64,000 nt of DNA from Novosphingobium pentaromativorans US6-1 (GTDB lineage: Bacteria > Pseudomonadota > Alphaproteobacteria > Sphingomonadales > Sphingomonadaceae): contig NZ_CP009292.1 of assembly GCF_000767465.1 (NCBI RefSeq), forward strand, positions 62,001 to 126,000, given 5' to 3'. Both the position numbers and the translations under genes were made by a program. The notes beneath the pieces were generated by a model, which searched no databases, was not told the DNA's origin, and saw only the letters and a program-made list of their open reading frames with translations. Of this stretch, positions 33,046 through 58,420 are shown in pieces; the stretch's first letter is position 1, and every line of letters starts with the position of its first letter.

Positions 33046-33639
33046 CTAGTCGGCCCGCTTTTTCAGCATCATTCGGGCCAGGATGTCGTCACCATCCAGT
33101 AGCTGATGTTTCACAACGCCTGCTATATGGAGAATAAGGGTAATCAGGATTGTGAACGCGCCGATCAGGTGAACAAAGACAAACCTGCCGTGAACGATCT
33201 TCTGTGAGACAGGCTCCATTGCCTGCAGCGGTTCAAAATAGGGCACGTGGATGATGCCCCAGAACATCAGGCGCCACGCTGGATTGGGTGGGTTGGCTGA
33301 CAGAATGAGATAGCCCGTGATCGGCAGCGCTAGCATGAGAATGTAGAAGAGAGCATGTACGGCACGCGCCAGACCGCGTTCCCAGGTCTTGTAAGAGTAT
33401 GGCGTCGGTGGAGCTGAATGGCTGAGGCGCCAGCCGATGCGCGCGACGGTGAGCAGCAAAACGGTCAACCCGATCCACGCGTGTACCGGCATCAGGATGG
33501 GTCGCATTGCAAGCGGGACAATTCTGATCATCACAAAGCCGAGTGCGAGATTGCCGACAATAAATGCCGCAATCCACCAATGCAGGATCACTGCCGTGCG
33601 GCTGTATCGATCTATCGGGTTCTTTGACGGGCTGGTCAC
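33046..33639 (-). CDS. cytochrome b561-family membrane protein
   Basis: A 197-residue inner-membrane protein with four hydrophobic helices. Candidate haem ligands are in LHWW (H20), PVHAW (H53), and LHIAGVVKHQ near the end, as in bacterial cytochrome b561. Such proteins move electrons between quinol and periplasmic acceptors. It ends the minus-strand VOC-DUF1185-FAH-GntR run with 69 bp to GntR. A role as electron donor in the catabolic pathway is possible but not shown. Confidence 0.85.
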   Translation of the reverse strand: MTSPSKNPIDRYSRTAVILHWWIAAFIVGNLALGFVMIRIVPLAMRPILMPVHAWIGLTVLLLTVARIGWRLSHSAPPTPYSYKTWERGLARAVHALFYILMLALPITGYLILSANPPNPAWRLMFWGIIHVPYFEPLQAMEPVSQKIVHGRFVFVHLIGAFTILITLILHIAGVVKHQLLDGDDILARMMLKKRAD

Positions 33640-33708
33640 ATTGTCACTTTCAATGCTGCGGTCGCTTGGAGGCCCGTTCCTTCGTAAGCCGAAGTGTCAC
33701 GGCGCCCG

Positions 33709-34449
33709 TCAGCGCATCCCATTTTCTATCAGCCATTTGCGAGCGTTTTCTGCTGTACCGCGAATGTGGTTTTCGATGATCTCGCAAGCCTTCTCCGTAT
33801 CCCGTTCGAGCACAGCTTCTAGAAGCTTGCGATGTTCGTCGATGCGGCCGGGGGCAGGGCTCTTGCGTACTGACAGCGTCCGATAGCGCTGTGCCTGATC
33901 GAACAGCAGACTGCGGAATCGCAGCAACCAGTTCGATGGGCACGCGGCGATCAGCGCTTCGTGAAAGCGGCTGTGACGCTCAACCCAAATCCGCCGGTTG
34001 GTCGGCGAAGTGACTGCCGCCTCCACTTTGACCATCATGTGATAGGCGGCAACGATATCCGCCTCCCATTGATCATCGCCATGTTCGATCGACTGGGCGA
34101 GCGCCTTCCTTTCGATATCCAGCCGGACCTCGGTGATGTCGTCGAGGTCAGAGAGGGAAATCTGCGCGACGCAGAAACCCCGGTTCGCTTCCGCCGAAAC
34201 CAGCCCCTCGAACACCATGTGGGTCAGCGCTTCACGCAGGCTGCCGACGCTGGCATTATAGCACGACCTGAGTTCATCCAGCTTGAGCCGCTGACCGGGG
34301 GCGAGCACACAACTGATCACATCGTCACGCAGACGTGCGCGCAAGTCGGTCGGTTCGGTATCGACCGTTTCGCTGGCGCCTTGGTCCATATCGGACGGGT
34401 CGGCCTTTTTGGGACGACCTCGCCCGACAGTCTTTTTCTGTGTCGGCAT
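33709..34449 (-). CDS. GntR-family (FCD type) regulator, copy B
   Basis: A 246-residue regulator about 85% identical by hand count to the copy at 23313-24053. The winged helix (LRDDVISCVLAPGQRLKLDELRSCYNAS) and the FCD bundle (RHSRFHEALIAAC) are intact. FCD regulators usually sense a carboxylated pathway intermediate and repress their own cluster. It sits 66 bp after the FAH gene on the same strand, in a catabolic operon, which makes autoregulation of VOC-DUF1185-FAH likely (inference). Confidence 0.92.
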   Translation of the reverse strand: MPTQKKTVGRGRPKKADPSDMDQGASETVDTEPTDLRARLRDDVISCVLAPGQRLKLDELRSCYNASVGSLREALTHMVFEGLVSAEANRGFCVAQISLSDLDDITEVRLDIERKALAQSIEHGDDQWEADIVAAYHMMVKVEAAVTSPTNRRIWVERHSRFHEALIAACPSNWLLRFRSLLFDQAQRYRTLSVRKSPAPGRIDEHRKLLEAVLERDTEKACEIIENHIRGTAENARKWLIENGMR

Positions 34450-34515
34450 GCGGTGTGCTCGGTTCCTTGTATCGGCTCTAATGCGCCGGAAGGCGGACCA
34501 GCGTTGGGGCGAAAG

Positions 34516-35391
34516 TCAAACCTCGTCAATAATATCGTTTACCAGCAAACCGATCTTGCTGATCTCCACCTCAGCACGATCTCCAGGCTTCATGAAGATC
34601 GGCGGTTCGCGGGTAAAGCCGACACCCCCCATCGTGCCGCTGGCGATAATGTCGCCGGGCTTCAACGGAATCCATTCGGTGATGTATGTGATCAGCGCGG
34701 CTACACTGAAGATCATGTCGCTGGTATTGGCCTTTTGCAGCACTTTGCCGTTCAGGCGGAATTCGATGTCCAGAACCTGAGGGTCGGGGATTTCGTCGGC
34801 GGTGACCAGCCACGGCCCGATGGAACCCGAATGGTAGAAATTCTTGCCCGGCGTTAACTGCCGTGAGTGGAACTGATAGTCGCGCACGCTTCCTTCGTTC
34901 ATCGCGCTGTAGCCGAAAACATATTGCAACGCGTCTTCCGGCTTGACGTAGCGAGGTGTCGGCTTGCCGATGACGACTGCCATTTCCGCTTCGAAATCAA
35001 GGTGTGTGGAAACCTTCGGACGCTCAATGTCCTGATTATGTCCGGTAACGGAATCGGGCATCCGCGCAAACATCACGGGATATTTGGGCACTTCACGTCC
35101 GCCGGGCAGTGCCTTGTCAGCCTCAGCGATATGGTCGTGATAGTTGAGCGCAACGCACAGGATTTTTTCCGGGTTGGGAATGACCGGCAGCTGCTTTACG
35201 CTGTCATAGGAATAGTCCCCCGTTTCGGTCTCCAGTAGTGCTTTGCAGCGTTCCTGCCAGCCCTCTTCGGTGATGAAGCTCTTGAGATCAGGAGATGTCT
35301 CGCCGAAGCGCGCGCCCAGATCAACGATCTGGCCATCTCGAACCAGCCCGTAGCTGGCGCGGCCGTCTACTTCATAACTGACGAATTTCAT
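34516..35391 (-). CDS. fumarylacetoacetate-hydrolase (FAH)-family protein
   Basis: A 291-residue member of the FAH superfamily, which hydrolyses or isomerises C-C bonds in acylpyruvates and ring-fission products. The metal motif LDFEAEMAVVIG gives E134 and E136; the third ligand region reads MNEGSVRD where most members have ND, so an E166 may replace the usual Asp. The C-terminal LKPGDIIASGTMGGVGF is typical. It follows an extradiol-dioxygenase-like VOC protein in the same operon, as expected for a ring-cleavage pathway. A truncated relative lies at 24121. Confidence 0.9.
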   Translation of the reverse strand: MKFVSYEVDGRASYGLVRDGQIVDLGARFGETSPDLKSFITEEGWQERCKALLETETGDYSYDSVKQLPVIPNPEKILCVALNYHDHIAEADKALPGGREVPKYPVMFARMPDSVTGHNQDIERPKVSTHLDFEAEMAVVIGKPTPRYVKPEDALQYVFGYSAMNEGSVRDYQFHSRQLTPGKNFYHSGSIGPWLVTADEIPDPQVLDIEFRLNGKVLQKANTSDMIFSVAALITYITEWIPLKPGDIIASGTMGGVGFTREPPIFMKPGDRAEVEISKIGLLVNDIIDEV

Positions 35392-35432
35392 GGATATTGC
35401 CCTATTTGATTATGGTTGAATGTTGCTGCTGA

Positions 35433-36020
35433 TCAGAATTTCGGCCCCTGGCCGTCCGCGGCTTCGGCAAAGCTGAGTCCGCCGATCCTTGCATGGGGCC
35501 GTCCGCCGTTGCTCATCGCCACGGCGAAGACGAGTTCATCGGGTTTGGGAGCGTCCGAAATGGTGATGTCGACGCCGTCGAAATGGCTGCGGACCCAGGG
35601 ACTGTGCACCGAGGCTAGCGGGATATGCAGATGCGCACCGATGGTGCCGATGATCTGCCCGCTGGTGACAAAACCGCGCGCATCCAGCAATTGTCGCATG
35701 CCATGGCCGCCCGGCGCATGCCAGACGGCGGCGTGTTCGATCTCGCCGTTTACGCCGACGATGGCGCCCTTGCCGAAAGCCTGTACGTCCGCGGCCTGGA
35801 AGCCCAGTGCGTCGAGCAGCCTTTCAGCCAGCTCGAGACCGAGCGGCCGCAGCGATTCCATCCATTCGATGAGGTCCTCGACATAGCGTCCGGCATAGGG
35901 GTTGTTGACGACCGCCGCGGCCGCTCCCTTTCGAAGGGGGGCGGCAAGAACGGGACCGCCGTCGTGACGAACGTCCTCGATCATCACCACCGTCTTGCGG
36001 CATTGGAGCAGCGCGCTCAC
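35433..36020 (-). CDS. DUF1185 ('amino acid synthesis') family protein
   Basis: A 195-residue protein of the PF06684 family. The GTG start at 36020 overlaps the upstream stop (GTGA) and has GGAGG nine bases before it, so the longer frame from 36089 is rejected. Visible family features are MIEDVRHDGG, GKGAIVGVNGEIEHAAVWHAPGG and the C-terminal SNGGRPHARIGGL. The family name is historical; no reaction is established. Its placement between a VOC dioxygenase and an FAH hydrolase suggests a catabolic role. Confidence 0.85.
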   Translation of the reverse strand: MSALLQCRKTVVMIEDVRHDGGPVLAAPLRKGAAAAVVNNPYAGRYVEDLIEWMESLRPLGLELAERLLDALGFQAADVQAFGKGAIVGVNGEIEHAAVWHAPGGHGMRQLLDARGFVTSGQIIGTIGAHLHIPLASVHSPWVRSHFDGVDITISDAPKPDELVFAVAMSNGGRPHARIGGLSFAEAADGQGPKF

Positions 36021-36556
36021 TTGCGCACCTCCGCAAGCCGGGCCGCCATTTTTGCTGCCCATTGCGCTTGAGGTTCCACGCCCTCGCACTCTTTGAGCCG
36101 TTGTTCGGTTCGCGCCACGATTTCCTCATCGCTCCATGACAGGTCGAGCGGGTCACCGAAGGGCTGCGCTACGTGCCAGCCGGTGTCGGTGTAGATCTCG
36201 ATCATGTTGCCGTCCGGGTCGTTGAAATACACTGACCAGCTGTTGCCGTGATTGAGCGGACGAATGCCTCGGGCGCCGGCGGATTCGGCGCGGGCCGCAA
36301 CGGCGCGCAACTCCGAGAGCGAGGCCATTTTGAACGAAACCTGGAACAACGCACCGCCGGGTGGATCGCCCTCCTCGCGCACCACCAGAACGAACTGATG
36401 ATGGTGTTCCGGGTTGCCAGTCATGAAGATGATTCGGCGCTTGAAGTGGTTTCCGATGCCCGTGTCGGACACGACCAGGTGCAGCACGCCGCGATAAAAT
36501 TGCTCCATCTCGACTGGTCTGTCGGTGAAAATTCCGATGTGAGTGAGGTTTGACAT
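36017..36556 (-). CDS. VOC-superfamily protein, extradiol-dioxygenase-like
   Basis: A 179-residue vicinal-oxygen-chelate protein. Candidate metal ligands are H6 (NLTHIGIFT), a histidine in NPEHHHQFVL (51-53) and E120 (DPDGNMIEIYTD), the His-His-Glu set of type I extradiol dioxygenases. The length is that of single-domain members. A strong AAGGAG lies before the ATG. It heads the minus-strand operon and diverges from the TonB receptor at 36722. Glyoxalase or isomerase activity cannot be excluded. Confidence 0.82.
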   Translation of the reverse strand: MSNLTHIGIFTDRPVEMEQFYRGVLHLVVSDTGIGNHFKRRIIFMTGNPEHHHQFVLVVREEGDPPGGALFQVSFKMASLSELRAVAARAESAGARGIRPLNHGNSWSVYFNDPDGNMIEIYTDTGWHVAQPFGDPLDLSWSDEEIVARTEQRLKECEGVEPQAQWAAKMAARLAEVRK

Positions 36557-36721
36557 ATGGGCTCCTTATTGCGCGGTGATATATAAAAGAGAGGTCTATG
36601 TCTAGATCAATAGTGTAACAAAAAATCATTCGACAAAAAGAGAATCAATCGATAAACAATTCGTCGACGGCACGCCAATGGGGTTTTGCGGGGCCTTGAA
36701 TGGGACAGGAGAGGGGGCAGT

Positions 36722-38953
36722 ATGCACCTGAATAAACGAAATATTTTTCTCATTTCTGCAGCGATGGTTTTGACTTTGGAATGTTCGCCCGCGGCGATGG
36801 CCCAGGCGGGTACGGAGTCTCAGTCCACGGTCGATTCCGGTCAGATTGCGGATATCGTCGTTACGGCGCAGCGCCGAGAAGAGAATGTGCAGAAGTCGTC
36901 GCTGTCGATCGAGGTCCTCTCGAAGGAAGACCTCGCCAAGTCAGGCGTCACCAGCGCACGCGACCTAGGCCAGCTGGTTCCCGGCCTCTCCGTTGCGCAG
37001 GGCGGATCTTATGCGCAGACCTTCATCCGCGGCGTGGGCGACGCGACCACCAATGACTTCAGCTCGAGCGGCGTAGTCTATTCCGAAAATGGCGTGGTGA
37101 TTAACCGCAATATCGCACTATCGCCCAACTTCTACGACCTCGAGCGGATCGAAGTCCTGAAGGGCCCCCAGGGTACGCTCTACGGCCGCAACTCGACTGG
37201 CGGGGCGATCAATCTGATCACCCGTCGGCCAGGCTATGAAACCGGCGGCTATGTCACAGTCGAGGCGGGCAACTACAATTCGCTCAAGGTGAACGGAGCG
37301 CTGAACGTGCCGGTCAGCGATATCTTCATGCTGCGGGGTGCATTCCAGATCGCCAAGCATGACGGCTATCTCAGCGATGGTCGCAACGATCAGGATCAGC
37401 GCGCTGGTCGCCTGACCGCAATGCTCGAGCCTTCGTCAGACTTCTCGCTGCTGGTTGTTGCCGACGTGCAGCACGAAGGCGGCAAGGGGCCGGGCGGCGC
37501 GCTGTTGCCTCTTCCCGCTGGCGCATCTGCATGGACCGGGCCGTCTGATACCCTGTCCACCAGCCGCCTGCCATCTATCGCTATACTGCCCAATGCGAAC
37601 ACCGCTTTCATCAACGGCAATTACGCCAGCGTTTCGGCCGAAGCTAATCTCAACGTCGGTTTTGCCAAGGCGACGCTGGTTGCCGGGCATCGCTACGTCG
37701 ATCAGCATTCCAGTACGGCCCAGCCTGGATTCACGACCAACTATGCCGGTAAGTCAAAGCAGGACTCCGTAGAGTTTCGTCTTAGTAACCAGAGCAACGT
37801 CCTGCGATGGGTCGCCGGCCTCTATTATTTCCACGAAAATATTGACTCGGTGCTCAACCCCACGATCAGCAACGTGATCCCGTTCCTCAATGCCAGCTTC
37901 GACATCCCCTCGCTTCCCACGACCAGCCTGGGTGCCTTCGCCGATGCGACTTTCAGCGTCTCCAGTTCGTTCCGACTTTTGGGTGGCATCCGCTACACGC
38001 ATGACAAGAAATCGATCCTCGGGATGCTCAACGACTTTTCCATCGCCCATCTGCCATCGGTCGCAATTTCTGGCAGCGCAAACTATTCACGCGTGACCTG
38101 GAAGGCCGGTGCGGAATTCGACGTGGGGCCGCAGAACATGCTCTACGCAACGGTGAGCACGGGCTACAAGGCCGGCGGTTTCTCGGCCGTTGCGCCGCCA
38201 AACAACCAGTTCCGACCCGAAAGCCTGACCTCGTACGTATTCGGTTCGAAGAACCGCTTCCTCGGCAACCGGCTGCAGATCAACGCCGAGGCGTTTTACT
38301 GGAAGTACAACGACTACCAGACCAGCGTGCTTCAACCCCAGCCCAACGGCATTGTCAGCCAGCCGATCATCAACGCCGGTTCGGCTAAGATCTATGGGCT
38401 TGACCTCGACGTGACGGCGAAGATCACCAAGCTCGACACGATCCGCTTCGTCGGTGAATATCTGCATACGCAGTTTGGCGAGTTCTCTTACGTACGCTCG
38501 GCCACCGGCCTGGTGCCCGGCGTGACCACTGGCTGCACGTTTTCGGGGCCGGCCTTCACCCAGTTCGGCAATCAGGTGCAGACGCTTGATTGCTCGGGCT
38601 TCCCGCTGCAGCGTTCACCGAAGTTTTCCGGCACGGTATCCTACGATCACGTGTTTCCGTTGGCGAACGGCGGCGACGTCGACTTCCGCGCGTTCACCAC
38701 GTTCGCGGGATCGCGTTGGCTAGGAGGCGAATATGTCGGCGCCGAACTGGCGAGGCCCTTTGCGACGGTCGACGTCGACCTGACCTATACTTCGCCTGAC
38801 AACGGGTTCACGCTTTCGGCCTATGGCCGCAACGTGGGCAACAAGCCGGTCTATTCGAATGCGACGATACAGCCTTTGTCGGGCGGCTCGGCGTTGTTCA
38901 CCGCGATCAACGCGCCGGCTACATACGGCGTTCGCGCCAGCATCAAATTCTGA
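36722..38953 (+). CDS. TonB-dependent outer-membrane receptor
   Basis: A 743-residue receptor. The ATG at 36722 follows AGGAGAGGGGG; the frame upstream to 36686 is unsupported. It has a signal peptide ending AMA, a TonB-box-like ADIVVTAQRREEN, a plug with IEVLKGPQGTLYGRNSTGG and a barrel ending in phenylalanine (VRASIKF). This receptor type is common at the head of sphingomonad catabolic clusters. It diverges from the VOC operon across 165 bp and is followed by a terminator and then the S15 hydrolase. It probably imports the pathway substrate (inference). Confidence 0.93.
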   Translation: MHLNKRNIFLISAAMVLTLECSPAAMAQAGTESQSTVDSGQIADIVVTAQRREENVQKSSLSIEVLSKEDLAKSGVTSARDLGQLVPGLSVAQGGSYAQTFIRGVGDATTNDFSSSGVVYSENGVVINRNIALSPNFYDLERIEVLKGPQGTLYGRNSTGGAINLITRRPGYETGGYVTVEAGNYNSLKVNGALNVPVSDIFMLRGAFQIAKHDGYLSDGRNDQDQRAGRLTAMLEPSSDFSLLVVADVQHEGGKGPGGALLPLPAGASAWTGPSDTLSTSRLPSIAILPNANTAFINGNYASVSAEANLNVGFAKATLVAGHRYVDQHSSTAQPGFTTNYAGKSKQDSVEFRLSNQSNVLRWVAGLYYFHENIDSVLNPTISNVIPFLNASFDIPSLPTTSLGAFADATFSVSSSFRLLGGIRYTHDKKSILGMLNDFSIAHLPSVAISGSANYSRVTWKAGAEFDVGPQNMLYATVSTGYKAGGFSAVAPPNNQFRPESLTSYVFGSKNRFLGNRLQINAEAFYWKYNDYQTSVLQPQPNGIVSQPIINAGSAKIYGLDLDVTAKITKLDTIRFVGEYLHTQFGEFSYVRSATGLVPGVTTGCTFSGPAFTQFGNQVQTLDCSGFPLQRSPKFSGTVSYDHVFPLANGGDVDFRAFTTFAGSRWLGGEYVGAELARPFATVDVDLTYTSPDNGFTLSAYGRNVGNKPVYSNATIQPLSGGSALFTAINAPATYGVRASIKF

Positions 38954-38962
38954 TGCGCGGCG

Positions 38963-39001
38963 GGCGCTCCCACAAGGCCGAAATGGCCGCGCGGGAGCGC
39001 C
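38963..39001 (+). terminator. rho-independent terminator after the TonB receptor
   Basis: A perfect 9-bp stem, GGCGCTCCC with GGGAGCGCC, encloses an inner GGCC/GGCC stem and is followed by TGCTTTCTT. It starts ten bases after the receptor stop. Confidence 0.75.
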
Positions 39002-39068
39002 TGCTTTCTTGTAGGCTTGAACTGGCGCGAAGACGCGCTTCGGGCAAAGGGCTGGAAAAGACGAAACT

Positions 39069-40814
39069 ATGGTCACTCAGATTAACACGCTGATCACTCC
39101 GTACCGACAGGCCAAGCCCGCGTCGCATCCGCCCGCGCGCTATCCGGGGTTCAACCCTGCGATAAAGCGGCTCTCGACCGGCAGTGTCGTGCGTGACGGT
39201 GCGCTGCCATTGGCGTGCGATCTGGTGATGGAACAGGATGTTGCTGTCCGCCTGCGTGATGGCACGACCATCTATGTCGATATCTTCCGCCCCGCCGACG
39301 CGGCAGGGCCGCTGCCCGCGCTCGTCAGTTGGGGGCCTTATGGCAAGCAGGGCGGTGTCATCACATTTGACGACCTGCCGCACCGTGGGGGCGTCCCGGT
39401 CGAAAGCGTCTCCGGGCTGGAAATGTTCGAAGGACCGGATCCCGCGTTCTGGTGTGCCAATGGCTATGCCGTGGTGAATGCCGATGCGCGCGGCGCGTTC
39501 AGCAGCGAGGGGGATATTCGCGCCTGGGGTCGGCAGGAAGGGCGCGATGGGCATGATCTGGTTGAATGGATCGCTGCCCAGCCATGGAGCAATGGCAAGG
39601 TCGGCCTGACCGGCACATCCTGGCTGGCGATCGTGCAGTGGTTCATCGCGGCGGAACGGCCGCCGCATCTGGCCGCGATCGCGCCGTGCGAAGGCTGGAC
39701 CGACCTTTATCGCTGCGATGTGGTTCGCGGCGGCGTGCCTGATGCCGGATTTGCGGATCACATGTTTTCGATGTTCGCCGGTGGCGGGCGCGTCGAGGAC
39801 GTACCGGCGATGGCTCGGGCCAATCCGCTGATGGGCACCTGCTGGGAAGATAAGATTCCAGCGCTTGGCAATATCGAAGTACCGGCCTTCGTGCTGGCGA
39901 GTTGGACCAACCTTATACACGCGATGGGCACGCTGAACGGCTGGCGGGGCATTGCCTCGCCCGATAAGTGGCTACGCATTCACAACACCCATGAATGGAC
40001 GGAATATTACACCAGCGCGCCCGATCTCCTGCGGTTTTTCGACCATTACCTCAAAGGCGAGGACAATGGCTGGGAAGCCACGCCGCGTGTCCGTATGGCG
40101 ATTCTCGATCCCGGAGGTGCCGATATTGTCGACCGGCCCGAGAAGGATTTTCCTTTGGCGCGCACAGACTACAGGCCGCTCTATCTCGATGCCGCATCCG
40201 CCACTCTAGGTGACATACCTGCCTCGGCGTCGGCCACCGTGCGCTATGACCCATGCGACGAGGCTAGCCGGGCGATCTTCGAGCACCGCTTCGACCGCGA
40301 CACGGAAATCGCGGGCTATATCAAGCTGCACCTGTGGGTCGAGGCGGTCGATGCCGACGATCTGGATATCTATTGCGAAGTCCGCAAATTGGGCGCTGGC
40401 GGAAAGCATCTTGCCTCGCGCACATTCCTGCCGCCGGGTGTTGATCGGCAGGATTTGCCTGAAAACCCGGAAGAACTTCCCGGCATGATCGTGTTTGCCG
40501 GTGCCAAGGGCATCCAGCGTGTATCGCTGCGCGCCACCGATCCGGCACGGTCGGGGCCAGCCGAGCCGTTCCATATGTTTGATCGGGTCGAAAAGCTCGC
40601 GCCAGGTGAAGTCGTGCCGGTGGATATCCAGATCTGGCCGCTGGGGATGCGCTGGCGCGCGGGTGAGCGCCTGCAACTGGTGATCGGCGGCAAGAAGCTG
40701 TCGGGCGTGGAATTTCCGGGGCTTGCGCCGGCGGATACGATCAACCTCGGAACCCATGTGATTCATACCGGGGGATCACACGACTCCCATCTGCTCTTGC
40801 CGGTAACAAATTGA
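39069..40814 (+). CDS. CocE/NonD-type (peptidase S15) hydrolase
   Basis: A 581-residue alpha/beta hydrolase with the C-terminal jelly-roll domain of the X-Pro dipeptidyl-peptidase/cocaine-esterase family. The nucleophile motif is GLTGTSWLA, and a plausible catalytic histidine is in HNTHEW. Early motifs RLRDGTTIYVDIFRP and NADARGAFSSEG are typical. There is no signal peptide, so it is cytoplasmic. It lies between the receptor and oxidative enzymes, so it probably cleaves an ester or amide in the imported substrate. Confidence 0.88.
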   Translation: MVTQINTLITPYRQAKPASHPPARYPGFNPAIKRLSTGSVVRDGALPLACDLVMEQDVAVRLRDGTTIYVDIFRPADAAGPLPALVSWGPYGKQGGVITFDDLPHRGGVPVESVSGLEMFEGPDPAFWCANGYAVVNADARGAFSSEGDIRAWGRQEGRDGHDLVEWIAAQPWSNGKVGLTGTSWLAIVQWFIAAERPPHLAAIAPCEGWTDLYRCDVVRGGVPDAGFADHMFSMFAGGGRVEDVPAMARANPLMGTCWEDKIPALGNIEVPAFVLASWTNLIHAMGTLNGWRGIASPDKWLRIHNTHEWTEYYTSAPDLLRFFDHYLKGEDNGWEATPRVRMAILDPGGADIVDRPEKDFPLARTDYRPLYLDAASATLGDIPASASATVRYDPCDEASRAIFEHRFDRDTEIAGYIKLHLWVEAVDADDLDIYCEVRKLGAGGKHLASRTFLPPGVDRQDLPENPEELPGMIVFAGAKGIQRVSLRATDPARSGPAEPFHMFDRVEKLAPGEVVPVDIQIWPLGMRWRAGERLQLVIGGKKLSGVEFPGLAPADTINLGTHVIHTGGSHDSHLLLPVTN

Positions 40815-40840
40815 AAAAGAAAAGTTCGGAGAGTGTTTCG

Positions 40841-41683
40841 ATGAAGATTGCAGTCATTGGCGCGACAGGGACGGTTGGCGCGGAAGTGACCCGGTTCCTG
40901 CTCGAAAAAGGGCATGAGATCACGGCCGTTGCGCGCAATCCGGGCAGCGTGCCCAGCCATCCGCGCCTGACGGCGCGCGCCACCGACATTTTCGATTTCC
41001 CGCAGCTGGAAGCGGCGCTGGCAGGGCATGAGGCGCTGGTTGTCGCCTATGCGCCAAAGGACAATGCCTATATCGGCTACAAGCTGTTGGTCGAGGCGGC
41101 GTGGCGGATCAAGCGCGCGTTCAAGGCGACGATACCGGACGCCTATTTCCTCAATGTCGGCGGCGCATCGAGCTTGTGGACGCCAAATGGTTTCCAGATG
41201 TTCGAAGAGCCGGAATGGCAGAACTGGTTTTTCAATTCAGGACCGCCGGAACACTGGCGTCGGTTGCATGAACTCAGTGGTTTCGAAGCGTTTCTCGAAA
41301 TGGCCGAACAGCGCGAGCGCATCCTGGCCGATCCGACGCAGGATCCTTACGCGAACTTCACCGGACCGGTTATCGAGGAATGGTACAGCCGCATCGGCGA
41401 GATCTTCGGCAAAGGCGAAGGCGGCCGGGCGCAATATGAATTTTTCGAATGCGATCGCAGCTTCCGCTGGAGCTTCGTGTCGCCGCCCTGGCTTCTGGGC
41501 CAGTCCGAGGTGACGGGACGGTATCGCACCACGATTGACAAGCTGCCTATCGAGAACGGCCGTCCGGCAGGCATATCGGTGACCGATCTGGCGTTGGCGA
41601 TTGCCGATACGGTCGATGCGCAGGGTCGGGTTCACCAGCATTGGAGTGCTGCGCGGATTCCGCCTGAGGGCACAGAAATCTGA
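40841..41683 (+). CDS. NAD(P)-binding NmrA/SDR-like protein
   Basis: A 280-residue atypical short-chain dehydrogenase-like protein. The Rossmann loop is GATGTVG near the N-terminus. The ATG at 40841 follows GGAGAG, whereas the frame from 40811 would need a TTG. A canonical catalytic YxxxK is not evident, so it may be a regulator-like or reductase-like NmrA member. A long insert (TPNGFQMFEEPEWQNWFF) is unusual. It stops one base before the next gene. Confidence 0.75.
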   Translation: MKIAVIGATGTVGAEVTRFLLEKGHEITAVARNPGSVPSHPRLTARATDIFDFPQLEAALAGHEALVVAYAPKDNAYIGYKLLVEAAWRIKRAFKATIPDAYFLNVGGASSLWTPNGFQMFEEPEWQNWFFNSGPPEHWRRLHELSGFEAFLEMAEQRERILADPTQDPYANFTGPVIEEWYSRIGEIFGKGEGGRAQYEFFECDRSFRWSFVSPPWLLGQSEVTGRYRTTIDKLPIENGRPAGISVTDLALAIADTVDAQGRVHQHWSAARIPPEGTEI

Positions 41684-41684
41684 C

Positions 41685-43124: not shown

Positions 43125-43142
43125 TCACAAAGGAGTTAGACA

Positions 43143-44186: not shown

Positions 44187-44266
44187 GCGAAGTTGCCCGA
44201 TGATCGAATGGTGAACAGTCAGGGTGCTGACGATGTTGGGCGCTTCAAAAAAAAAGGGCTAACTTA

Positions 44267-46492: not shown

Positions 46493-46497
46493 TTCAA

Positions 46498-47469: not shown

Positions 47470-47546
47470 ATTGCCTGGTGCGTGGCGGGGCAGCTCCGCC
47501 ACGCCTTTCAGATCAGGGATAGCCCGATAATTTGAGGGGATGGTGG

Positions 47547-48694: not shown

Positions 48695-48697
48695 GCG

Positions 48698-50802: not shown

Positions 50803-51718
50803 GGTAATCATCACGTGCGCCATCACGGGCGGCATTCACACGCCCACCCTGTCTGATGCGCTGCCCTACAAACCGGCCGATCTAGCCACACAGGCGATCG
50901 AAGCGGCCGAAGCTGGTGCCGCAATCCTGCACATCCACGCACGCGACCCCGAGACGGGTGCGCCGACAGGGAGCCCCGATGTCTATCGGCAATTCCTGCC
51001 TATCATCAAGCAGGGCACCGATGCGGTCATCAACCTGACGACCGGCGGCAGCCCGGACATGACGCCGGAGGACCGGCTGGCGGGTGCGCTCGCCTTCTCG
51101 CCTGAGATGTGTTCGCTCAACATGGGCAGCATGAATTTCTCGTTCCACGACATGGGTCGTAAGGTGAAGGAATGGAAATTTCCCTGGGAAGATCAATATA
51201 TTCTCGACAGCGAGAAGTTCATCTTCCGCAACACCTTCGCCGATATCCGTCGCAACTATGAGCTTCTGACCGACCACGGCACCAGGTTCGAGCATGAATG
51301 CTATGATATCGGCCATCTCTACAATCTGGCCTATTTCGCCGACAAGGGTATCGCGAAGCCCCCCTTCTTCATCCAGTCGATCTTCGGGATTCTCGGCGGG
51401 ATCGGAGGCGATCTGGACAATGTGATGTTCATGAAACGCACCGCCGACAGGCTGTTCGGCAGCGACTATGTCTGGTCGGTGCTGGGCGCGGGCAAATTTC
51501 AGATGCCTGTCTGCACTATGGCGGCCCAACTCGGCGGCAATGTGCGGGTCGGCCTGGAAGACAGCCTGTTCATCGGCCGGGGCCAGCTTGCCTCGTCGAA
51601 CGCACAGCAGGTCGAGAAAATCGTGCGCATAATTCGCGAAATGGGATTAGAACCGGCAACCCCGGACGAAGCGCGCGGGCTGCTCCATCTCAAGGGCGCC
51701 GACCGGACAAAGATTTGA
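50792..51718 (+). CDS. beta-keto acid cleavage enzyme (BKACE, DUF849)
   Basis: A 308-residue TIM-barrel zinc enzyme. The metal pair H47/H49 lies in ILHIHARDPETG, as in 3-keto-5-aminohexanoate cleavage enzyme; NLTTGGSPDMTPEDRL and EDSLFIGRGQLA are also typical. BKACEs cleave a beta-keto acid with acetyl-CoA to acetoacetate and a CoA ester. The ATG at 50792 lies inside the end of the MFS gene. It ends the operon and may produce an acyl-CoA for downstream oxidation. Confidence 0.92.
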   Translation: MANKVIITCAITGGIHTPTLSDALPYKPADLATQAIEAAEAGAAILHIHARDPETGAPTGSPDVYRQFLPIIKQGTDAVINLTTGGSPDMTPEDRLAGALAFSPEMCSLNMGSMNFSFHDMGRKVKEWKFPWEDQYILDSEKFIFRNTFADIRRNYELLTDHGTRFEHECYDIGHLYNLAYFADKGIAKPPFFIQSIFGILGGIGGDLDNVMFMKRTADRLFGSDYVWSVLGAGKFQMPVCTMAAQLGGNVRVGLEDSLFIGRGQLASSNAQQVEKIVRIIREMGLEPATPDEARGLLHLKGADRTKI

Positions 51719-51733: not shown

Positions 51734-52837
51734 TCAGCAGGGGAAAGCCAGCGGCGAGCGCGAGAAGACAATCGGCAATCGCAGACCGGGAATGGCAGCG
51801 CCACCGTCGCTTTGGGCCACGGCGATTGCCATTCCGCGGTGGCGGACTTGCGGATCGTTGAAGGCATCGGCCACAGAGTTGATCGGCCCGGCAGGCACAC
51901 CGGCAGCGGTCAAGGCGGCGAGGAGCTCGTCACGCGGGCGCGCCGCTATGGCGGGGATCAGCATCGTATTCATCGGCGTACGATGCTCTACACGGCCTGC
52001 ATTGGTGGCGAGATTTTCATGCGGTTCCACGCCCAGAACCGCGCAGCATCGCTGGAACTGTTCATCGTTGCCGACCGCGAGGATGATCCAGCCATCGCTG
52101 GTCGCATAGGATTGGTAGGGTGCGATGTTCGGGTGCACATTGCCCGCGCGGCTTGGGGCGACGCCCGACACAAGATAATTCATCGCCTGATTGGCCAGCG
52201 TGCCGACCATCACGTCGAGCAGCGCCATATCGATCTGCTGTCCCATTCCGCTGCGTTCGCGTTCGGCCAGCGCGGCATGAATGGCGATGACGGCATAGAG
52301 TCCGGTCATGATATCGGCATAGGCGACGCCGATTTTCTGGGGCGGACCGTCCGGCTCTCCGGTCAGGTCCATGATCCCGCTCAGACCCTGGGCGATGAAA
52401 TCATAGCCCGGGCGCGCAGCATAGGGGCCGTCCTGTCCGAAGCCAGTGATCGAGCAATAGACCAGACGCGGATTGATAGCGGAAAGGGAAGGGTAATCGA
52501 GGCCGTAGCGCACCAGCCCGCCAACCTTGAAGTTCTCAATCAGAACATCGGCATTGGCTGCAAGTTCACGCGCCTGGGCCTGGCCTTCCGGTGTCGCAAA
52601 GTCGATGGTGACGAACTGCTTTCCCCGGTTGGTCGCGTGAAAATAGGCTGCCTCGCGCGATCCGTCTTCATGTTCGACGAACGGCGGACCCCAGCGACGC
52701 GTATCGTCGCCGGCCGGGCTTTCCACCTTGATCACCTCGGCGCCAAGATCGGCGAAAATCTGTCCCGCCCAGGGGCCAGCCAATATCCGCGCGAACTCAA
52801 CAACCCTCAGGCCATGCAGGGGCGGCAAAGCCTCCAT
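51734..52837 (-). CDS. family III CoA-transferase (CaiB/BaiF)
   Basis: A 367-residue CoA-transferase. The catalytic aspartate should be D175 in VAYADIMTGLYA (formyl-CoA transferase D169 equivalent). Other motifs are LRVVEFARILAGPWAGQIFADLGAEVIKVE and GYDFIAQGLSGIMDLTG. Its ATG overlaps the stop of the upstream acyl-CoA dehydrogenase by one base (TGATG), so the two are coupled. With a glutaryl-CoA dehydrogenase beside it, it may activate a dicarboxylate such as glutarate (inference). Confidence 0.9.
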   Translation of the reverse strand: MEALPPLHGLRVVEFARILAGPWAGQIFADLGAEVIKVESPAGDDTRRWGPPFVEHEDGSREAAYFHATNRGKQFVTIDFATPEGQAQARELAANADVLIENFKVGGLVRYGLDYPSLSAINPRLVYCSITGFGQDGPYAARPGYDFIAQGLSGIMDLTGEPDGPPQKIGVAYADIMTGLYAVIAIHAALAERERSGMGQQIDMALLDVMVGTLANQAMNYLVSGVAPSRAGNVHPNIAPYQSYATSDGWIILAVGNDEQFQRCCAVLGVEPHENLATNAGRVEHRTPMNTMLIPAIAARPRDELLAALTAAGVPAGPINSVADAFNDPQVRHRGMAIAVAQSDGGAAIPGLRLPIVFSRSPLAFPC

Positions 52838-54012
52838 CAGAACGCCGAAAGCCCGGTGATGCCCCGCCCAAGGATCAAGGCGTGCACGTCATGCGTGCCT
52901 TCGTAAGTGTTCACGGTCTCCAGATTGAGCATGTGGCGGATGACATGATATTCGCCCGAAATGCCGTTGCCGCCGTGCATGTCTCGCGCCGCGCGGGCGA
53001 TGTCGAGTGCCTTGCCGACATTGTTGCGCTTGACCAGCGAGATCATCTCCGGCGCGTAATTTCCTTCATCCATCAGCCGGCCGACCCGCAGCGATGCCTG
53101 AAGGCCAAGGCTGATGTCCGTTACCATGTCGGCCAGCTTTTTCTGGTAGAGCTGGGTTGCGGCGAGCGGCCGTCCGAACTGCCTGCGCTCAAGCCCATAT
53201 TGGCGCGCGGCGGCATAGCAGAATTCCGCTGCGCCAAGCGCGCCCCAGGAGATACCGTAGCGGGCCCGGTTCAGGCAGCCGAAGGGGCCTTTCAGTCCTT
53301 CGACATTTGGCAGCAGCGCGGTTTCCGGCACAGTTACATCGTCGAGGTTGATCATGCCGGTGATCGATGAGCGCAGACTCAGCTTGTTGGCGATCTTGGG
53401 CGCAGAAAGGCCCGTCATGCCCTTTTCAAGAATGAAACCGCGAATGGCGCCACCATGTGCCTCGGACTTGGCCCACACGACGAAAACGTCGGCGATCGGC
53501 GCATTGGTGATCCAGGTCTTGTTGCCGGTCAGGCAATAGCCGCCAGCAACCTTGCGCGCGACGGTACGCATGCTGCCGGGGTCCGATCCTGAATCCGGTT
53601 CGGTCAGTCCGAAGCAACCGATCAAACTGCCTGCGGTCAGTCCGGGCAGATAGGCCTGCCGTTGTGCTTCCGAGCCATATTGATAGATCGGGAAAGCGAC
53701 CAGGCTCGACTGGACGCTCATCATCGAACGATAGCCGGAATCGACCCGCTCGATCTCGCGCGCGATCAGGCCATAGGCGACATAGGATGCGCCGACGCCG
53801 CCATATTGTTCGGGCAAGGTAGGGCCGAGCAGCCCCTGTGCGCCGAATTCGCGGAAGATGGCCGGGTCGCAATGCTCCCGCTCGAAAGCATCGGCGATGC
53901 GGGGCTGCAGTCGATCTTGCGCAAAAACATACGCCGATTGTGCGATCAGCCGCTCATCTTCGTTGAGCTGGCTGGTGATCTGCAAAGCGTCTTCCCATTG
54001 AAACGATGTCAT
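52837..54012 (-). CDS. gcdH: glutaryl-CoA dehydrogenase-like acyl-CoA dehydrogenase
   Basis: A 391-residue flavoprotein. The FAD/substrate blocks [17 protein letters not shown] and WITNAP are intact. The C-terminal [20 protein letters not shown] carries the catalytic glutamate (E371) and is the signature of glutaryl-CoA dehydrogenases, which dehydrogenate and decarboxylate glutaryl-CoA to crotonyl-CoA. The ATG at 54012 is chosen to match family length. It is coupled to the CoA-transferase and diverges from a LysR gene. Confidence 0.88.
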
Positions 54013-54089
54013 GGTGGCCTGTTTCCAATCTGTTGGGCGATCCGTTGATTGACACGGCCAGCGTAATTCTATCAATGTTTCATATTGCC

Positions 54090-54101
54090 GCAATCAATTG
54101 C
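54090..54101 (+). promoter_or_regulatory. candidate LysR binding site between gcdH and lysR
   Basis: GCAATCAATTGC is a 5-bp dyad with two-base spacer in the 105-bp divergent region, 17 bp before the LysR start. The longer ATTGC...GCGAT pattern fits a T-N11-A type LysR site. Confidence 0.45.
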
Positions 54102-54117
54102 GATTTGGAATGATGTG

Positions 54118-55023
54118 ATGATCAATGGCCTGGATGTCGAAGCCTTCGTCGCCATAGCGGAAGAACGGCATTTCCTGCGCGCGGCCGATCGCGTCGGCAT
54201 CGCGCAATCGGTCGCGAGCAAGCGCCTCAAGCGGCTGGAAGCGCAGCTCGGCCTGACCCTGATCGATCGCGAAAATCGGATGGATATCGGACTGACGCGG
54301 GCGGGCAGTCTCTTCCTGCCTGTCGCGCGTGAGACGCTGGATCAGCTGCGCCGCGCCGAGCGGCTGGGCCATGACTTCGGCAGGGGGGAATCTGGGCCGC
54401 TGCGGCTCGGCTATGTCTTCTCCGCGGCATTGACCGGATTGCTGATCAACGTGATCGAGGGGCTGGCGCGAAGCAGGCCGCGGCTGGAGGTGAGGCCGGT
54501 ACTGATGGAAACGCCCGAACAGCTTGCCGCGCTGGAGCAGGGCATTATCGACGTCGGCTTTCTGCGGCCACGGTCAAGCTATCCGGCCTGGTGCCTGAAT
54601 GAGCGTGCGCACAGCGAGGGCATCCTGCTCGGCATGGCCAAATCGCATGGCCTTTGTGATCGAACCAGCGTGCGGGCCAGCGCGCTGGCTAGCGAAGTTT
54701 TCGTCGTACCCCAGTTTCGCGAAGATGTCGGCTTGATCGAACATGTCCATAATCTGGCGAAGCTGGGGGGCTTTGCGCAACCAGTTGTGATACCAACAGC
54801 AGACTATATCACTGCCGCCAGCATGGCTGCCGCTGGACTGGGTATCGTATTGGCCCCGGCGTCGCTCGCGCGCCTTCACCTGAAGGGGCTCGGGTTTGTC
54901 GGGATAGACGATTACTGTCCATCGCTTGAGATCGAAATGGTGCATCGAGGCGATGTGCCCGAACCGCTGATCGCAGATGTGCGCGCGGCCTTTGGCAGCG
55001 CTTCTCCCGTCGACGCGGCCTGA
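54118..55023 (+). CDS. LysR-family transcriptional regulator
   Basis: A 301-residue LysR regulator. The N-terminal helix-turn-helix reads FVAIAEERHFLRAADRVGIAQSVASKRLKRLEAQLG, followed by the usual sensor domain (LRLGYVFSAAL, DVGFLRPRS). It diverges from the glutaryl-CoA dehydrogenase/CoA-transferase pair and should control it, with an acidic intermediate as likely effector. Start at 54118 matches the family N-terminus. Confidence 0.92.
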   Translation: MINGLDVEAFVAIAEERHFLRAADRVGIAQSVASKRLKRLEAQLGLTLIDRENRMDIGLTRAGSLFLPVARETLDQLRRAERLGHDFGRGESGPLRLGYVFSAALTGLLINVIEGLARSRPRLEVRPVLMETPEQLAALEQGIIDVGFLRPRSSYPAWCLNERAHSEGILLGMAKSHGLCDRTSVRASALASEVFVVPQFREDVGLIEHVHNLAKLGGFAQPVVIPTADYITAASMAAAGLGIVLAPASLARLHLKGLGFVGIDDYCPSLEIEMVHRGDVPEPLIADVRAAFGSASPVDAA

Positions 55024-55033: not shown

Positions 55034-56287
55034 TTAGGCATGGGCGTGGTTGGCTGGCGCTTTATGCACGGTTCCGCCTTTCATAACCATGGTCAGCTTG
55101 TCCGCTTCCTGTAGGATCGTGATGTCATCGACAGGGTTCCCTGCGACCAGCAACAGGTCCGCGATATAGCCTTCCTTGATTAGGCCGAGTTCGCCGCCAC
55201 GGTGCATGAGCTGAGCGCCAAGCGCAGTGACGGCATGCAGCGTTTCACCTGGCGTGAAGCCATAGTCGCGCACGAGCAATTCCAGATCACGTGCGTTCCG
55301 GCCGATGGGGTTCCAGGCGAAGCCATAGTCACCTCCCGGCAGAATGCGTAGCCCCAGCTTGCGCATCGCGGGAATGACGCGGCGCGTTGCTTCATAGGTC
55401 GACCGGACTTCCATATTGGCGATTTCCTAGGACGAAAGGCCTGAACCTTCGATCGTGGTCAGTAGAATGCCCGGTCCCGGCGCTACGAATATTTCGTCGC
55501 GCCGTTCGGCCATCAATTCGATTGTCTCCGGGGAGGCAAAGGCACAGTGGTACAGCAGGCGTATGCCGTGGCGCAGCGCCATGCGGAGCGCCTGGTCGGA
55601 ATAGAGATGGGCACTGGTGTCCAGCTCGCAATCGCGCGCGACCTCCATCAGGGCTTCCAGCTCGTTTTCGTAGAACATCAGGCTGCGCGCAGTGCCATGG
55701 ATCAGGCTGCTTTCGCCATTGAGACCGATCTTGATATTTTGAATGCCGGTGTCGGCAAGCGCCTTTACCGCATCGCGTACGGCGGCGGGGTTTGATTCCC
55801 GGTGGCTACGGTCGATGATGCCGAATGGCAGCTTGTTTTCCGGGTCGATGAATGCCGGCATCCATTGGCCGCAGCTGGAGCGCAGTCGCGGGCCGGGAAG
55901 GCGGCCTGCCTCAATTTCCGCCTGCAACAGGATATCGGCGCGGTTGTCGGCGAAGGTCCCGGCCGAGTAGGCCGATGTGTATCCGTGATCGAGCAGGACG
56001 CGCGCCGCATAGACTGCACCCAGCATACGGTCCACCGGTGACAGGGCGAACGTGTTGGCGGGAATGCGCCCCACGCTTGCTCCGAAATCGAGATGTGCAT
56101 GGGCTTCCGTCATCCCCGGCATCAATGTCATGCCGGCCGCATCGATCACATGGTCATCCGACTGCGCCACTGTTGCCGCGCTACGATCGATGGATTGAAT
56201 GCGATCATCCGAGATCGTCACATCGGCCCGGTACAGCGCTTCGCCCGAGCCATCGAAAATGGTGGCGCCCTTTATGACTTTGCGCAT
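55034..56287 (-). pseudogene. amidohydrolase interrupted by an in-frame amber codon
   Basis: Read through, a 417-codon imidazolonepropionase-like metal hydrolase. Metal ligands AHAHLDF, the histidines in TSAHLYSD and LYHCAFAS, and the aspartate in PGGDYGF lie on both sides of a single TAG (55427-55429, codon 287, after GLSS). The downstream frame continues without shift as EIANMEVRSTYEATRR, so only one base separates it from a full gene. This may be a pseudogene, a sequencing error or a natural suppressible codon. It lies downstream of the GST gene. Confidence 0.85.
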
Positions 56288-56317
56288 TGGTCGTTTCAGA
56301 TAACGGGCCGCACGGGT

Positions 56318-57184
56318 CTATGTCGTCAAGCCGCAGACTTCGGACAGGCTCCGCCCTGCTTGTGCCAGGGCTTCCTGATGCGCCGCAACTCGCGCGGCAA
56401 ACGGCGGGGGCAGGGCCATTTCAGGAGCAAAGGCGGGATCGGATTTCAGGGTGGCGGCCCACGCCGCAAGTCTTGGATGTAGATGCTCCAAGGGATAGCC
56501 GGCAAGAGCGAGCCGATTGACATAGATCACCCAGGCGATGTCGAGCACGGACAGCTGATTGCCCAGAATATAGGATGAACCGGCAAGGCGCTGTTCAAGG
56601 TCTTCGAAGGCTGCGCGGAATTCTGCGACAGCGGCGCGTGCGGCCTCGTCGGAAATGCCGCCGTCCAGCATGTTGCGCCAAAAGGCGATTTCCCTGTCGC
56701 GCGCTGCATCGGCGACGCCGCCTACTGTGCCGGAACCTTGGTTTGCATAGCGCTCTAGATCCTGTGCGGTCTTGGGCGGTTCGTCCGTCGGCATCATGAA
56801 CCGGAACGTGACGGTGCGCAGCGCCATGTGCAGATTGTCTTCATGACGCAGCAGGTCGCTCACGCTGTCGTTGTGCTCGGCGGGGATCAGCGATGGTTCG
56901 GGGAAGCGCGATTCCAGATGGACGAGAATATCGTTGCTCTCGATATGCACCGCGCCATCATCGATCAGGCACGGCACCAGCCCGCGCGGATTGATGCCCA
57001 GATAATAGCTGGAGATATTCTCTTTCAACATGAGGTTGACCGGGTGTGATGTCCACTCGACATCCTTGATGTTCAGATAGATCCGGACCTTTTGTGAACA
57101 GGATGATCCGGGCGCATGGAAAAGGTGAATGCCTTTCCAGTCGAGTACTTCGCGGGTGGTGATGTCTCGTTCGGATAATTGCAT
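56318..57184 (-). CDS. glutathione S-transferase-family protein
   Basis: A 288-residue GST. The thioredoxin-fold N-terminus carries SSCSQKVRIYLNIK (active-site Ser/Cys region), NPRGLVPCLIDDG and ESNDILVHLE, which bind glutathione. The C-terminal helical domain is complete (LSVLDIAWVIYVNRL). Length exceeds typical ~210-residue GSTs, as in bacterial etherases and isomerases of aromatic pathways. It lies 30 bp before the broken amidohydrolase and may act in ether cleavage, isomerisation or detoxification. Confidence 0.85.
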   Translation of the reverse strand: MQLSERDITTREVLDWKGIHLFHAPGSSCSQKVRIYLNIKDVEWTSHPVNLMLKENISSYYLGINPRGLVPCLIDDGAVHIESNDILVHLESRFPEPSLIPAEHNDSVSDLLRHEDNLHMALRTVTFRFMMPTDEPPKTAQDLERYANQGSGTVGGVADAARDREIAFWRNMLDGGISDEAARAAVAEFRAAFEDLEQRLAGSSYILGNQLSVLDIAWVIYVNRLALAGYPLEHLHPRLAAWAATLKSDPAFAPEMALPPPFAARVAAHQEALAQAGRSLSEVCGLTT

Positions 57185-57196
57185 ATTTATTAACCT

Positions 57197-58420
57197 TTAC
57201 TGCTTGACCGGGTGTGCCCGAGTTTCAGACTTCGCAGAACGGCGCAACAGAACCGAGCCCATGCCAATAGCACTCATTGTCAGCGCCACGATGCCGAGCA
57301 CGGCAAAGGCATCGAGTATACTTGTGCCTGCTCTGTTCAACAGCATGCCGACGACAGCCGCACTTAGGAATTGGCCGAAGGTGAATGATGAATTCCACAG
57401 GCCGAGGCCGCGTCCGCGCACCTCGTCTGGCATTCGTTCGGCCACTGCCGTCACCAGGGTTGGCAACATCATTCCGCATGCCATCAGGTTAAAAAAGGCC
57501 AGTACGACAAGCGGTGCGATTGCCGGGAATTGCGGCATGAGCGTTAGTGTGATGCCGCACAGCAGCAACTCGCAAGGCAGCAACAGTCGCCCAAGCAACT
57601 GCTTCATCTGCACGAATAGGGCGGAGCCGAGCATGATGCCCACGGCGGCGATCGCGCTGAGCAGGCCAATCTGGCCGCTGTCCTTGGCGCCGGCGGTCGA
57701 AAGCGCCAGCCCGAACTGAAATTGCGTCGTAAAGAAGAAGACCCCGACAACCAACGTGAGCACGCAATAACAGAGTAACCATGCCCAGGGCGTTTGCGCA
57801 TCTGTGTGGCTCGCAGCAGTGTGCGCCGTTGTTTTGATGCCGCGTGTGTGCCATGCGACGGCCGCCGCCAGTGCTAACCCACTCAGAAACAACAGAAACG
57901 AGCCATGCCATCCGAGCGCGGTTCCCGCCATGAATCCACTAAGCGGCAGTACCACGAGCGACGAGGATGTTGCGGCCACCGTCTGGATTGCCAACCATTT
58001 GTCCCTGGGAGCGCCCTGGTAAAGCTGACCGATGAGCGCGATGGACAGCACCAGCGCCACGACTTGGCTGACACCAAGCGCGATCCGGGAAGCCAGAATG
58101 GTTCCAAAATCGTTCAATATTAGCGGCATGGCGCCAAAAAGGGAAAACAGGCAGAGGCTGATGACGATGGGCCATCTGAGGCCAATCTTGTCTCCGAGAT
58201 AGCCAGCAAGCGGTGAGAGAAGGGCGGTGCACAGGCCAGGCACGGCAACCAGTGCTGGTATCCAGAAATTGGCGTCTTTCACGCCGGCGAACTGTTGGAA
58301 CAATTGAGGGACGATCGGGACAAGGACGATCGCCGACATAACTGCCGGTACACTGCACAGCGACAGCACTATCCCCAACGGAACCGATCCTCCGGGTTGG
58401 GTTTCCTTAAGCGCCGACAT
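57197..58420 (-). CDS. MFS transporter
   Basis: A 407-residue transporter with about twelve hydrophobic segments. GYLGDKIGLRWPI in loop 2-3 is the MFS A-motif and RMPDEVRGRGLGLWNSSFTFGQFL belongs to the second half. CGGGAGAGC lies seven bases before the ATG. It shares a strand with the GST, 12 bp apart, so they form an operon. An operator-like dyad lies about 80 bp upstream. Confidence 0.9.
   Translation of the reverse strand: MSALKETQPGGSVPLGIVLSLCSVPAVMSAIVLVPIVPQLFQQFAGVKDANFWIPALVAVPGLCTALLSPLAGYLGDKIGLRWPIVISLCLFSLFGAMPLILNDFGTILASRIALGVSQVVALVLSIALIGQLYQGAPRDKWLAIQTVAATSSSLVVLPLSGFMAGTALGWHGSFLLFLSGLALAAAVAWHTRGIKTTAHTAASHTDAQTPWAWLLCYCVLTLVVGVFFFTTQFQFGLALSTAGAKDSGQIGLLSAIAAVGIMLGSALFVQMKQLLGRLLLPCELLLCGITLTLMPQFPAIAPLVVLAFFNLMACGMMLPTLVTAVAERMPDEVRGRGLGLWNSSFTFGQFLSAAVVGMLLNRAGTSILDAFAVLGIVALTMSAIGMGSVLLRRSAKSETRAHPVKQ

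Follow-up and report, generated by a model that had tools for sequence, protein, structure and literature searches.

The 64,000-nucleotide stretch analysed here (the window) comprises positions 62,001 to 126,000 of contig NZ_CP009292.1 of Novosphingobium pentaromativorans US6-1, a contig of 756,828 bases in a genome of 5.46 Mb. Its segment 33046-58420 had been described, from the letters and translated reading frames only, as a catabolic island with several transcription units, and both the gene content and the strand changes support this prediction: five genes on the minus strand (33046-36556) are followed by thirteen on the plus strand (36686-51718, from a TonB-dependent receptor to a BKACE-family gene), then by a minus-strand pair with a plus-strand LysR gene (51734-55023) and by a last minus-strand block (55034-58420). 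Every gene family named in that original prediction was found in the segment with Pfam. The genes at 46597-51718 (the core), together with the receptor, hydrolase and regulator genes upstream of them, are as follows.

36686-38953, plus strand: TonB-dependent receptor, first of the thirteen co-oriented genes (Pfam)
39069-40814, plus strand: S15/CocE-type serine hydrolase (Pfam; TIGR00976 at 219.9 bits, cut-off 66.3)
45743-46492, plus strand: TetR-type regulator (Pfam)
46597-47469, plus strand: Cyclase-family protein, candidate DPGC (Pfam; Trp44/Tyr46, metal motif HSGTHIDAPAH)
47532-47897, plus strand: core cupin, Cupin_2 (Pfam)
47894-48694, plus strand: short-chain dehydrogenase/reductase (SDR) of Gly type, candidate PGR (5g4k at 4.2e-52, structure search, loop motif)
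48698-49603, plus strand: 3HCDH-like protein, candidate TfD (3-hydroxy-5-oxohexanoate dehydrogenase; Pfam, Ser/His/Asn motifs)
49600-50802, plus strand: core MFS carrier (Pfam)
50783-51718, plus strand: BKACE, candidate triacetate lyase TAL (NF053538 at 504.7 bits, cut-off 430)

PMC10470551 describes four enzymes for the phloroglucinol pathway of Clostridium scatologenes: PGR, a phloroglucinol reductase of the SDR type; DPGC, a dihydrophloroglucinol cyclohydrolase of the Cyclase family; TfD, a dehydrogenase resembling 3HCDH; and TAL, a lyase of the BKACE family. Transporter and regulator genes lie near the cluster. In the window, Pfam places the Cyclase, SDR, 3HCDH and BKACE genes in one cluster, with a cupin, an MFS carrier and an upstream TetR gene beside them. 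Because all four C. scatologenes enzyme families stand together, we propose that the core encodes the reductive phloroglucinol pathway in a variant form, and we put the probability of this reading at about three in four. The original prediction knew of no named pathway with this gene set, which proves wrong for the core.

In the proposed pathway, the SDR would reduce phloroglucinol to dihydrophloroglucinol, and the Cyclase-family enzyme would open the ring of the latter to give 3-hydroxy-5-oxohexanoate. The 3HCDH-like enzyme would then oxidise this compound to triacetate, which the BKACE would convert, together with acetyl-CoA, into acetoacetate and acetoacetyl-CoA. CoA-transferases from contig C1, on which two CoA-transferase pairs are present, could activate the acetoacetate. 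Ahead of these steps, the S15 hydrolase would act on an acylated precursor to release phloroglucinol; the TonB-dependent receptor, a candidate outer-membrane importer, and the MFS carrier would bring in the substrate, and the TetR-type protein is the candidate regulator of the core. For this organism we infer the reactions, cofactor, precursor, transport and regulation from gene content, synteny, motifs and model scores.

The core was compared with the best 80 of 146 cyclase relatives, at loci that span sphingomonads, other Alpha-, Beta- and Gammaproteobacteria, an acidobacterium and actinobacteria and many of which are contig fragments. Using tblastn at 1e-8, we detected the SDR in 77 of the 80 loci, the cupin in 66, the 3HCDH-like protein in 61 and the BKACE in 56; all four enzymes occur together in 54/80, and with the cupin in 53/80. 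Homologues of the MFS carrier (8/80) and of the TetR regulator (4/80, 52-61% identity) are rarer, and TonB receptors, a broad family, lie near the core in 13/80 loci and in Rhizorhabdus wittichii RW1. Closer to home the gene set is patchily distributed: a cyclase match at 1e-20 was obtained in 4 of 98 genomes, the organism's own included; two of these matches are distant (50% and 35%), and the second genome with a clear cyclase (G010) carries the core, its cyclase being split across two contigs. The conserved synteny that the original prediction named as support is seen for the core; for the Rieske, FAH/DUF1185 and glutarate-type genes it is not, a few single hits excepted. As a side observation, sulfatase-type genes lie near the core in L011, L012, L014 and L018 (6/101 flank open reading frames, in a survey covering 101 of 143 called frames at 10 of 11 chosen loci), and the window has a sulfatase at 6432-8081 on the minus strand, about 40 kb from the core.

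The candidate reductase has 5g4k and 5g4l, named "Phloroglucinol reductase from Clostridium sp.", as its sole PDB sequences below 1e-45 (4.2e-52; about 40% identity). A structure predicted from 43 sequences (mean pLDDT 85.7, weaker at residues 201-230) also ranked 5g4k/5g4l first with Foldseek; other SDRs tie with them in Z (33.0 vs 33.3), and the fold search by itself does not single out phloroglucinol reductase among SDRs. In the alignments, from which rows covering less than 70% of the query were excluded for the residue counts, the loop PTVFRSxxTxWM is shared by 83 of 85 rows, 5g4k among them, and is missing from the Rubrivivax gelatinosus and Acetoanaerobium proteins. The TR(S/N) motif of PGR is described in PMC10470551 as contacting the 2'-phosphate of NADPH. 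In the 84 rows compared at the position of its Arg (83 locus proteins besides that of the window), Gly occurs 81 times and Ala once; Arg itself is confined to the R. gelatinosus (L107) and Acetoanaerobium noterae (L109) proteins. The window SDR, with Gly for the Arg of the clostridial NADPH-dependent PGR motif, is therefore filed by its sequence as a variant outside that subfamily. Arg and the VFRS loop are both found in all 120 listed homologues of the clostridial enzyme, a narrow sample (best 120 of 1450; 85-99% identical to 5g4k).

Since the loop is unchanged, the replacement of Arg by Gly suggests that it is the cofactor that differs and not the substrate, and we incline slightly towards an NADH-linked reductase. 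The C. scatologenes TfD favours NADH over NADPH in the direction measured (PMC10470551); with an NADH-linked reductase, reduction and re-oxidation would cancel and the ring opening would be redox-neutral.

As for the cyclase, PMC10470551 draws attention to Trp20 and Tyr22 of the C. scatologenes DPGC. We placed these residues via the Acetoanaerobium cyclase, which has Trp and Tyr at numbers 20 and 22, and not via the C. scatologenes sequence itself; Trp44 and Tyr46 of the window protein align with them. The Tyr is found in 87/87 rows and the Trp in all but one, which has a gap there (86/87), in a count that excludes the distant L004 and L005, both lacking the pair. Solved structures are remote from this protein (best 33.7 bits; isatin hydrolase 28.5 bits), and in a quick tree of 89 cyclases it falls among sphingomonad sequences. 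Its metal motif reads HSGTHIDAPAH; the RW1 cyclase (L108 16001-16873) reads HSGTHINAPAH and is the only one of the 87 rows with Asn for the metal-motif Asp.

The 3HCDH-like protein retains in alignment the catalytic Ser, His and Asn motifs of TfD. An apparent loss of the CoA-contact Lys and Asn, as in TfD, was judged by eye from an alignment with the Acetoanaerobium protein only. In both NCBIfam and the PDB, the best match of this protein is vitamin-B6 dehydrogenase (219.4 bits, cut-off 500). The BKACE, the only PF05853 match in the genome, exceeds the cut-off of NF053538, the model for 3,5-dioxohexanoate:acetyl-CoA acetone transferase (504.7 vs 430 bits). This substrate, 3,5-dioxohexanoate, is the triacetate on which TAL acts. 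The window BKACE lacks the Trp16 that CsTAL has in place of the KCE Glu, and reads TGGIHTP where CsTAL-type enzymes read TGAWP. Sixty BKACE rows divide into an IHTP/MHTP subgroup (35), a GPIA subgroup (21) and a GAWP subgroup of the CsTAL Trp type (4). Because two of the four Trp-type proteins (L028 and L054) follow window-type cores, these sequences suggest that the subgroups act on a common intermediate.

The resemblance to C. scatologenes (PMC10470551) extends from the same four clustered families, with an MFS carrier and a regulator, to the DPGC Trp/Tyr pair, the TfD catalytic motifs and the reductase loop. The differences are the Gly in the window reductase, the BKACE without Trp16, an extra cupin (a word absent from the text of PMC10470551), the nearby S15 hydrolase and TonB receptor, and the lack of a detectable hydrolase of 2,4-diacetylphloroglucinol (DAPG) or phloretin in the window's genome. 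Cupin, SDR, cyclase and BKACE genes are also clustered in R. gelatinosus (L107) and A. noterae (L109), of which only L109 gives a 3HCDH match as well; unlike the window, both have a Trp-type BKACE and an SDR of the Arg type that lacks the VFRS loop and shares 40-41% and 38-39% identity, respectively, with the window SDR.

A further close system is Swit_5053-5058 on the conjugative plasmid pSWIT02 of R. wittichii RW1 (cyclase 94%, cupin 85%, SDR 79%, 3HCDH 68% and BKACE 86%), for which a literature search by six of its locus tags found no paper. As in the window, an S15 homologue is near, here directly downstream of the BKACE (39%), and homologues of the flavoprotein (39%), the aldehyde dehydrogenase (34%) and the TonB receptor lie within about 16 kb of the core. 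Unlike the window, RW1 has no MFS carrier between 3HCDH and BKACE, its cyclase has the Asn mentioned above, and its core adjoins a hydroxyquinol 1,2-dioxygenase gene set (L108 9743-14581). Maleylacetate-reductase and intradiol-dioxygenase genes also occur near the core of Aminobacter MSH1 (L110 590-2579). Perhaps resorcinol and phloroglucinol routes stand side by side at these two loci.

Genes resembling the DAPG/phloretin hydrolase lie near the core in 15 of the 80 loci by tblastn, and PF18089 occurs anywhere in 8 of 398 Pseudomonadota genomes by profile search, a comparison that sets matches near the core against whole-genome profile matches. PF18089 was taken as this hydrolase from its Pfam name and from PMC10470551. 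When seven of these proteins were scanned, only that of Acetoanaerobium stayed narrowly under the Pfam cut-off (22.1 vs 22.7), and the other six exceeded it. Since these genes share loci with the core, they point to phloroglucinol as the core substrate.

Some observations weigh against the proposed reading. The model that matched in 8 of 398 Pseudomonadota genomes gave no DAPG/phloretin hydrolase in this genome (nor in 14 control genomes), and none was found in any sphingomonad or Mycobacterium locus among the 80, although PMC10470551 reports phloretin hydrolase in Mycobacterium clusters. In addition to a separate Arg-type cluster, R. gelatinosus has a lone window-type cyclase (L031 10001-10807, 87%), near which the other genes of the window core are all missing. 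Finally, the loss of one Arg is no proof of NADH use.

Near the core, the S15 hydrolase could act in place of the DAPG/phloretin enzyme. Homologues directly flank the core or lie within it in L016, L029, L075 and L084 (4/80) and stand after the BKACE on pSWIT02, against a background of matches in 4 of 149 other Pseudomonadota genomes; the two counts come from different programs, and L075 and L084 are actinobacterial while the background is Pseudomonadota only. The GxS serine is aligned in 6/6 S15 proteins. On these sequence grounds, we give a little less than even odds to an accessory role in which the S15 hydrolase releases phloroglucinol from an acylated precursor; we know of no record of S15 proteins doing so with acylated polyphenols. 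The aromatic or heterocyclic ester or amide originally envisaged as substrate survives in this guise, as a possible acylated or esterified precursor from which the S15 enzyme would yield phloroglucinol. The wider proposal of a distinct aerobic-type branch, with an NADH-dependent Gly-type reductase, an NAD-linked dehydrogenase that forms triacetate, redox-neutral ring opening through this pairing and S15 replacing the phloretin/DAPG hydrolase on TonB-imported acylated polyphenols, is speculative and on balance unlikely. PMC10470551 already reports clusters of this kind from mycobacteria and from marine alpha- and gammaproteobacteria; the sphingomonad case, the Gly signature and the S15 link were not found in the literature searched.

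Alternatively, the core could act on a relative of phloroglucinol that carries a methyl, carboxyl or acyl group on the ring, and not on phloroglucinol itself. The distinct subgroups formed by the window-type reductase and BKACE would fit such a substrate, as would the coexistence in R. gelatinosus of an Arg-type cluster with a lone window-type cyclase. However, the BKACE lies above the cut-off for unsubstituted 3,5-dioxohexanoate, Trp-type BKACEs take the same place in L028 and L054, and both the substrate loop of the reductase and the Trp/Tyr pair of the cyclase are unchanged, so that we consider this alternative improbable.

The original prediction considered that the entire 33-58 kb segment could be one undescribed route. 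Indeed, its catabolic genes are adjacent, thirteen of them are co-oriented, and mobile-element genes frame them (IS110- and IS4/5-type transposases at 24.4-29.6 kb, and an integrase-core (rve) gene at 60.7-62.3 kb). On the other hand, the core already matches a known pathway and is syntenic far beyond sphingomonads, the Rieske, FAH/DUF1185 and glutarate-type genes are not, bar a few single hits, the glutarate-type and FAH/DUF1185 genes giving only single or weak matches near the core elsewhere, and the amidohydrolase gene is interrupted. A single new pathway is thus very improbable, and the island is a composite. Slightly less credible still is a different pathway that uses 3HCDH and BKACE enzymes, for instance the breakdown of carnitine or vitamin B6: the vitamin-B6 model is the best one for the 3HCDH-like protein and carnitine dehydrogenase models score 172.6 and 138.4 bits, but all three scores are far under their cut-offs (500, 592 and 414), for which reason both readings were dropped, and the cyclase, the SDR and the conserved synteny would be left unexplained.

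Around the phloroglucinol core, the remaining genes of the segment are the following.

33046-33639, minus strand: cytochrome b561 gene (Pfam; missing from the original prediction)
33046-36556, minus strand: block of five genes, namely cytochrome b561, GntR, FAH hydrolase, AA_synth/DUF1185 and VOC (Pfam)
40811-41683, plus strand: NAD(P)H-binding protein (Pfam; missing from the original prediction)
41601-43124, plus strand: FAD-linked dehydrogenase, D-2-hydroxyglutarate-dehydrogenase-like (Pfam; PDB 3pm9 at 451.9 bits, 6lpn at 328.4 bits); true start probably near 41685, not 41601
43143-44186, plus strand: Rieske oxygenase (Rieske and VanA_C), dicamba-O-demethylase-like (Pfam; PDB 3gb4 at 162.8 bits)
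44267-45691, plus strand: aldehyde dehydrogenase (Pfam; best NCBIfam 2,5-dioxovalerate dehydrogenase, 523 bits, below the cut-off of 750)
51734-54093, minus strand: CoA-transferase and glutaryl-CoA dehydrogenase pair (PDB names; NF052585 at 535.7 bits, under the cut-off of 750)
54085-55023, plus strand: LysR regulator, divergent from the glutarate-type pair (Pfam)
55034-58420, minus strand: interrupted amidohydrolase, GST and MFS carrier (Pfam; in-frame stop)

Among the Pfam families of the segment are VOC/Glyoxalase, CoA_transf_3, acyl-CoA dehydrogenase, GST, two MFS_1 and GntR-FCD. G+C is 0.58-0.62 from 34 kb onward, as in most of the window, and lower (0.51-0.54) at 28-34 kb. Promoter and terminator scans were no richer than shuffles (8 vs 7.3 and 12 vs 17.3, respectively).

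The link of the Rieske, flavoprotein and aldehyde dehydrogenase genes to the core is uncertain. Together with the NAD(P)H-binding gene they are co-oriented with it; near a core elsewhere (80 loci and RW1) none of the four was found, except for the distant flavoprotein and aldehyde dehydrogenase homologues on pSWIT02. For the NAD(P)H-binding protein, no match was obtained in 296 (E<=1e-35) and 384 (E<=1e-50) other genomes; its nearest named relatives are from Thioclava and Frigidibacter (73-75%). Rieske homologues (41-44%) occur in 4 of 97 other genomes (E<=1e-60). Their surroundings (19-20 kb for three, a whole 3.3 kb contig for the fourth) contain a TonB match in 4/4 cases, which may be chance in TonB-rich genomes. 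Apart from distant SDR, FAH and S15-fragment matches, neither core genes nor FAD-dehydrogenase or NAD-binding genes were linked to them there.

The GntR/FAH/DUF1185 block (33046-36556) is probably independent of the core; DUF1185 matched 0 of 97 other genomes (E<=1e-30), and the FAH, amidohydrolase and glutarate-type genes each gave one or two weak matches near the core in the 80 loci. The same probably holds for the CoA-transferase/glutaryl-CoA dehydrogenase module. Nine of the 13 PDB matches of its acyl-CoA dehydrogenase are named glutaryl-CoA dehydrogenase (one of them "putative"; best 576.5 bits), the top match (628.6 bits) carries just the name acyl-CoA dehydrogenase, and against curated models the two genes reach 200.1 of 470 bits (NF045552) and 535.7 of 750 bits (NF052585, the best model of the transferase). 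When the 25 kb were compared with plasmids by megablast, 56 records matched; of the 20 listed, 19 align in the CoA-transferase/dehydrogenase stretch only and the remaining one, RW1, in the core. Lastly, the amidohydrolase (55034-56287, minus strand; missing from the original prediction) has an in-frame stop at codon 287, with both halves in one frame. It is probably inactive here. The amidohydrolase/GST/MFS block (55034-58420) is probably independent of the core as well.

In the window at large, two GntR-FCD genes (23313-24137 and 33709-34449, both minus strand) flank the transposase-rich stretch, and an Erythromycin-esterase-family gene (21620-22945, minus strand) adjoins a phosphoribosyltransferase-domain gene (20314-21825, minus strand).

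Phloroglucinol is a building block of plant polyphenols. The reading proposed here would assign a substrate and a sequence of reactions to genes that are widespread, on pSWIT02 too, and are named only generically (cyclase, SDR, 3HCDH, DUF849). It offers a cofactor prediction that turns on one residue, and it names the S15 hydrolase as candidate upstream enzyme where a DAPG/phloretin hydrolase was not found. Finally, it suggests that the phloroglucinol ring may be opened without oxygen in bacteria usually seen as users of oxygenases.

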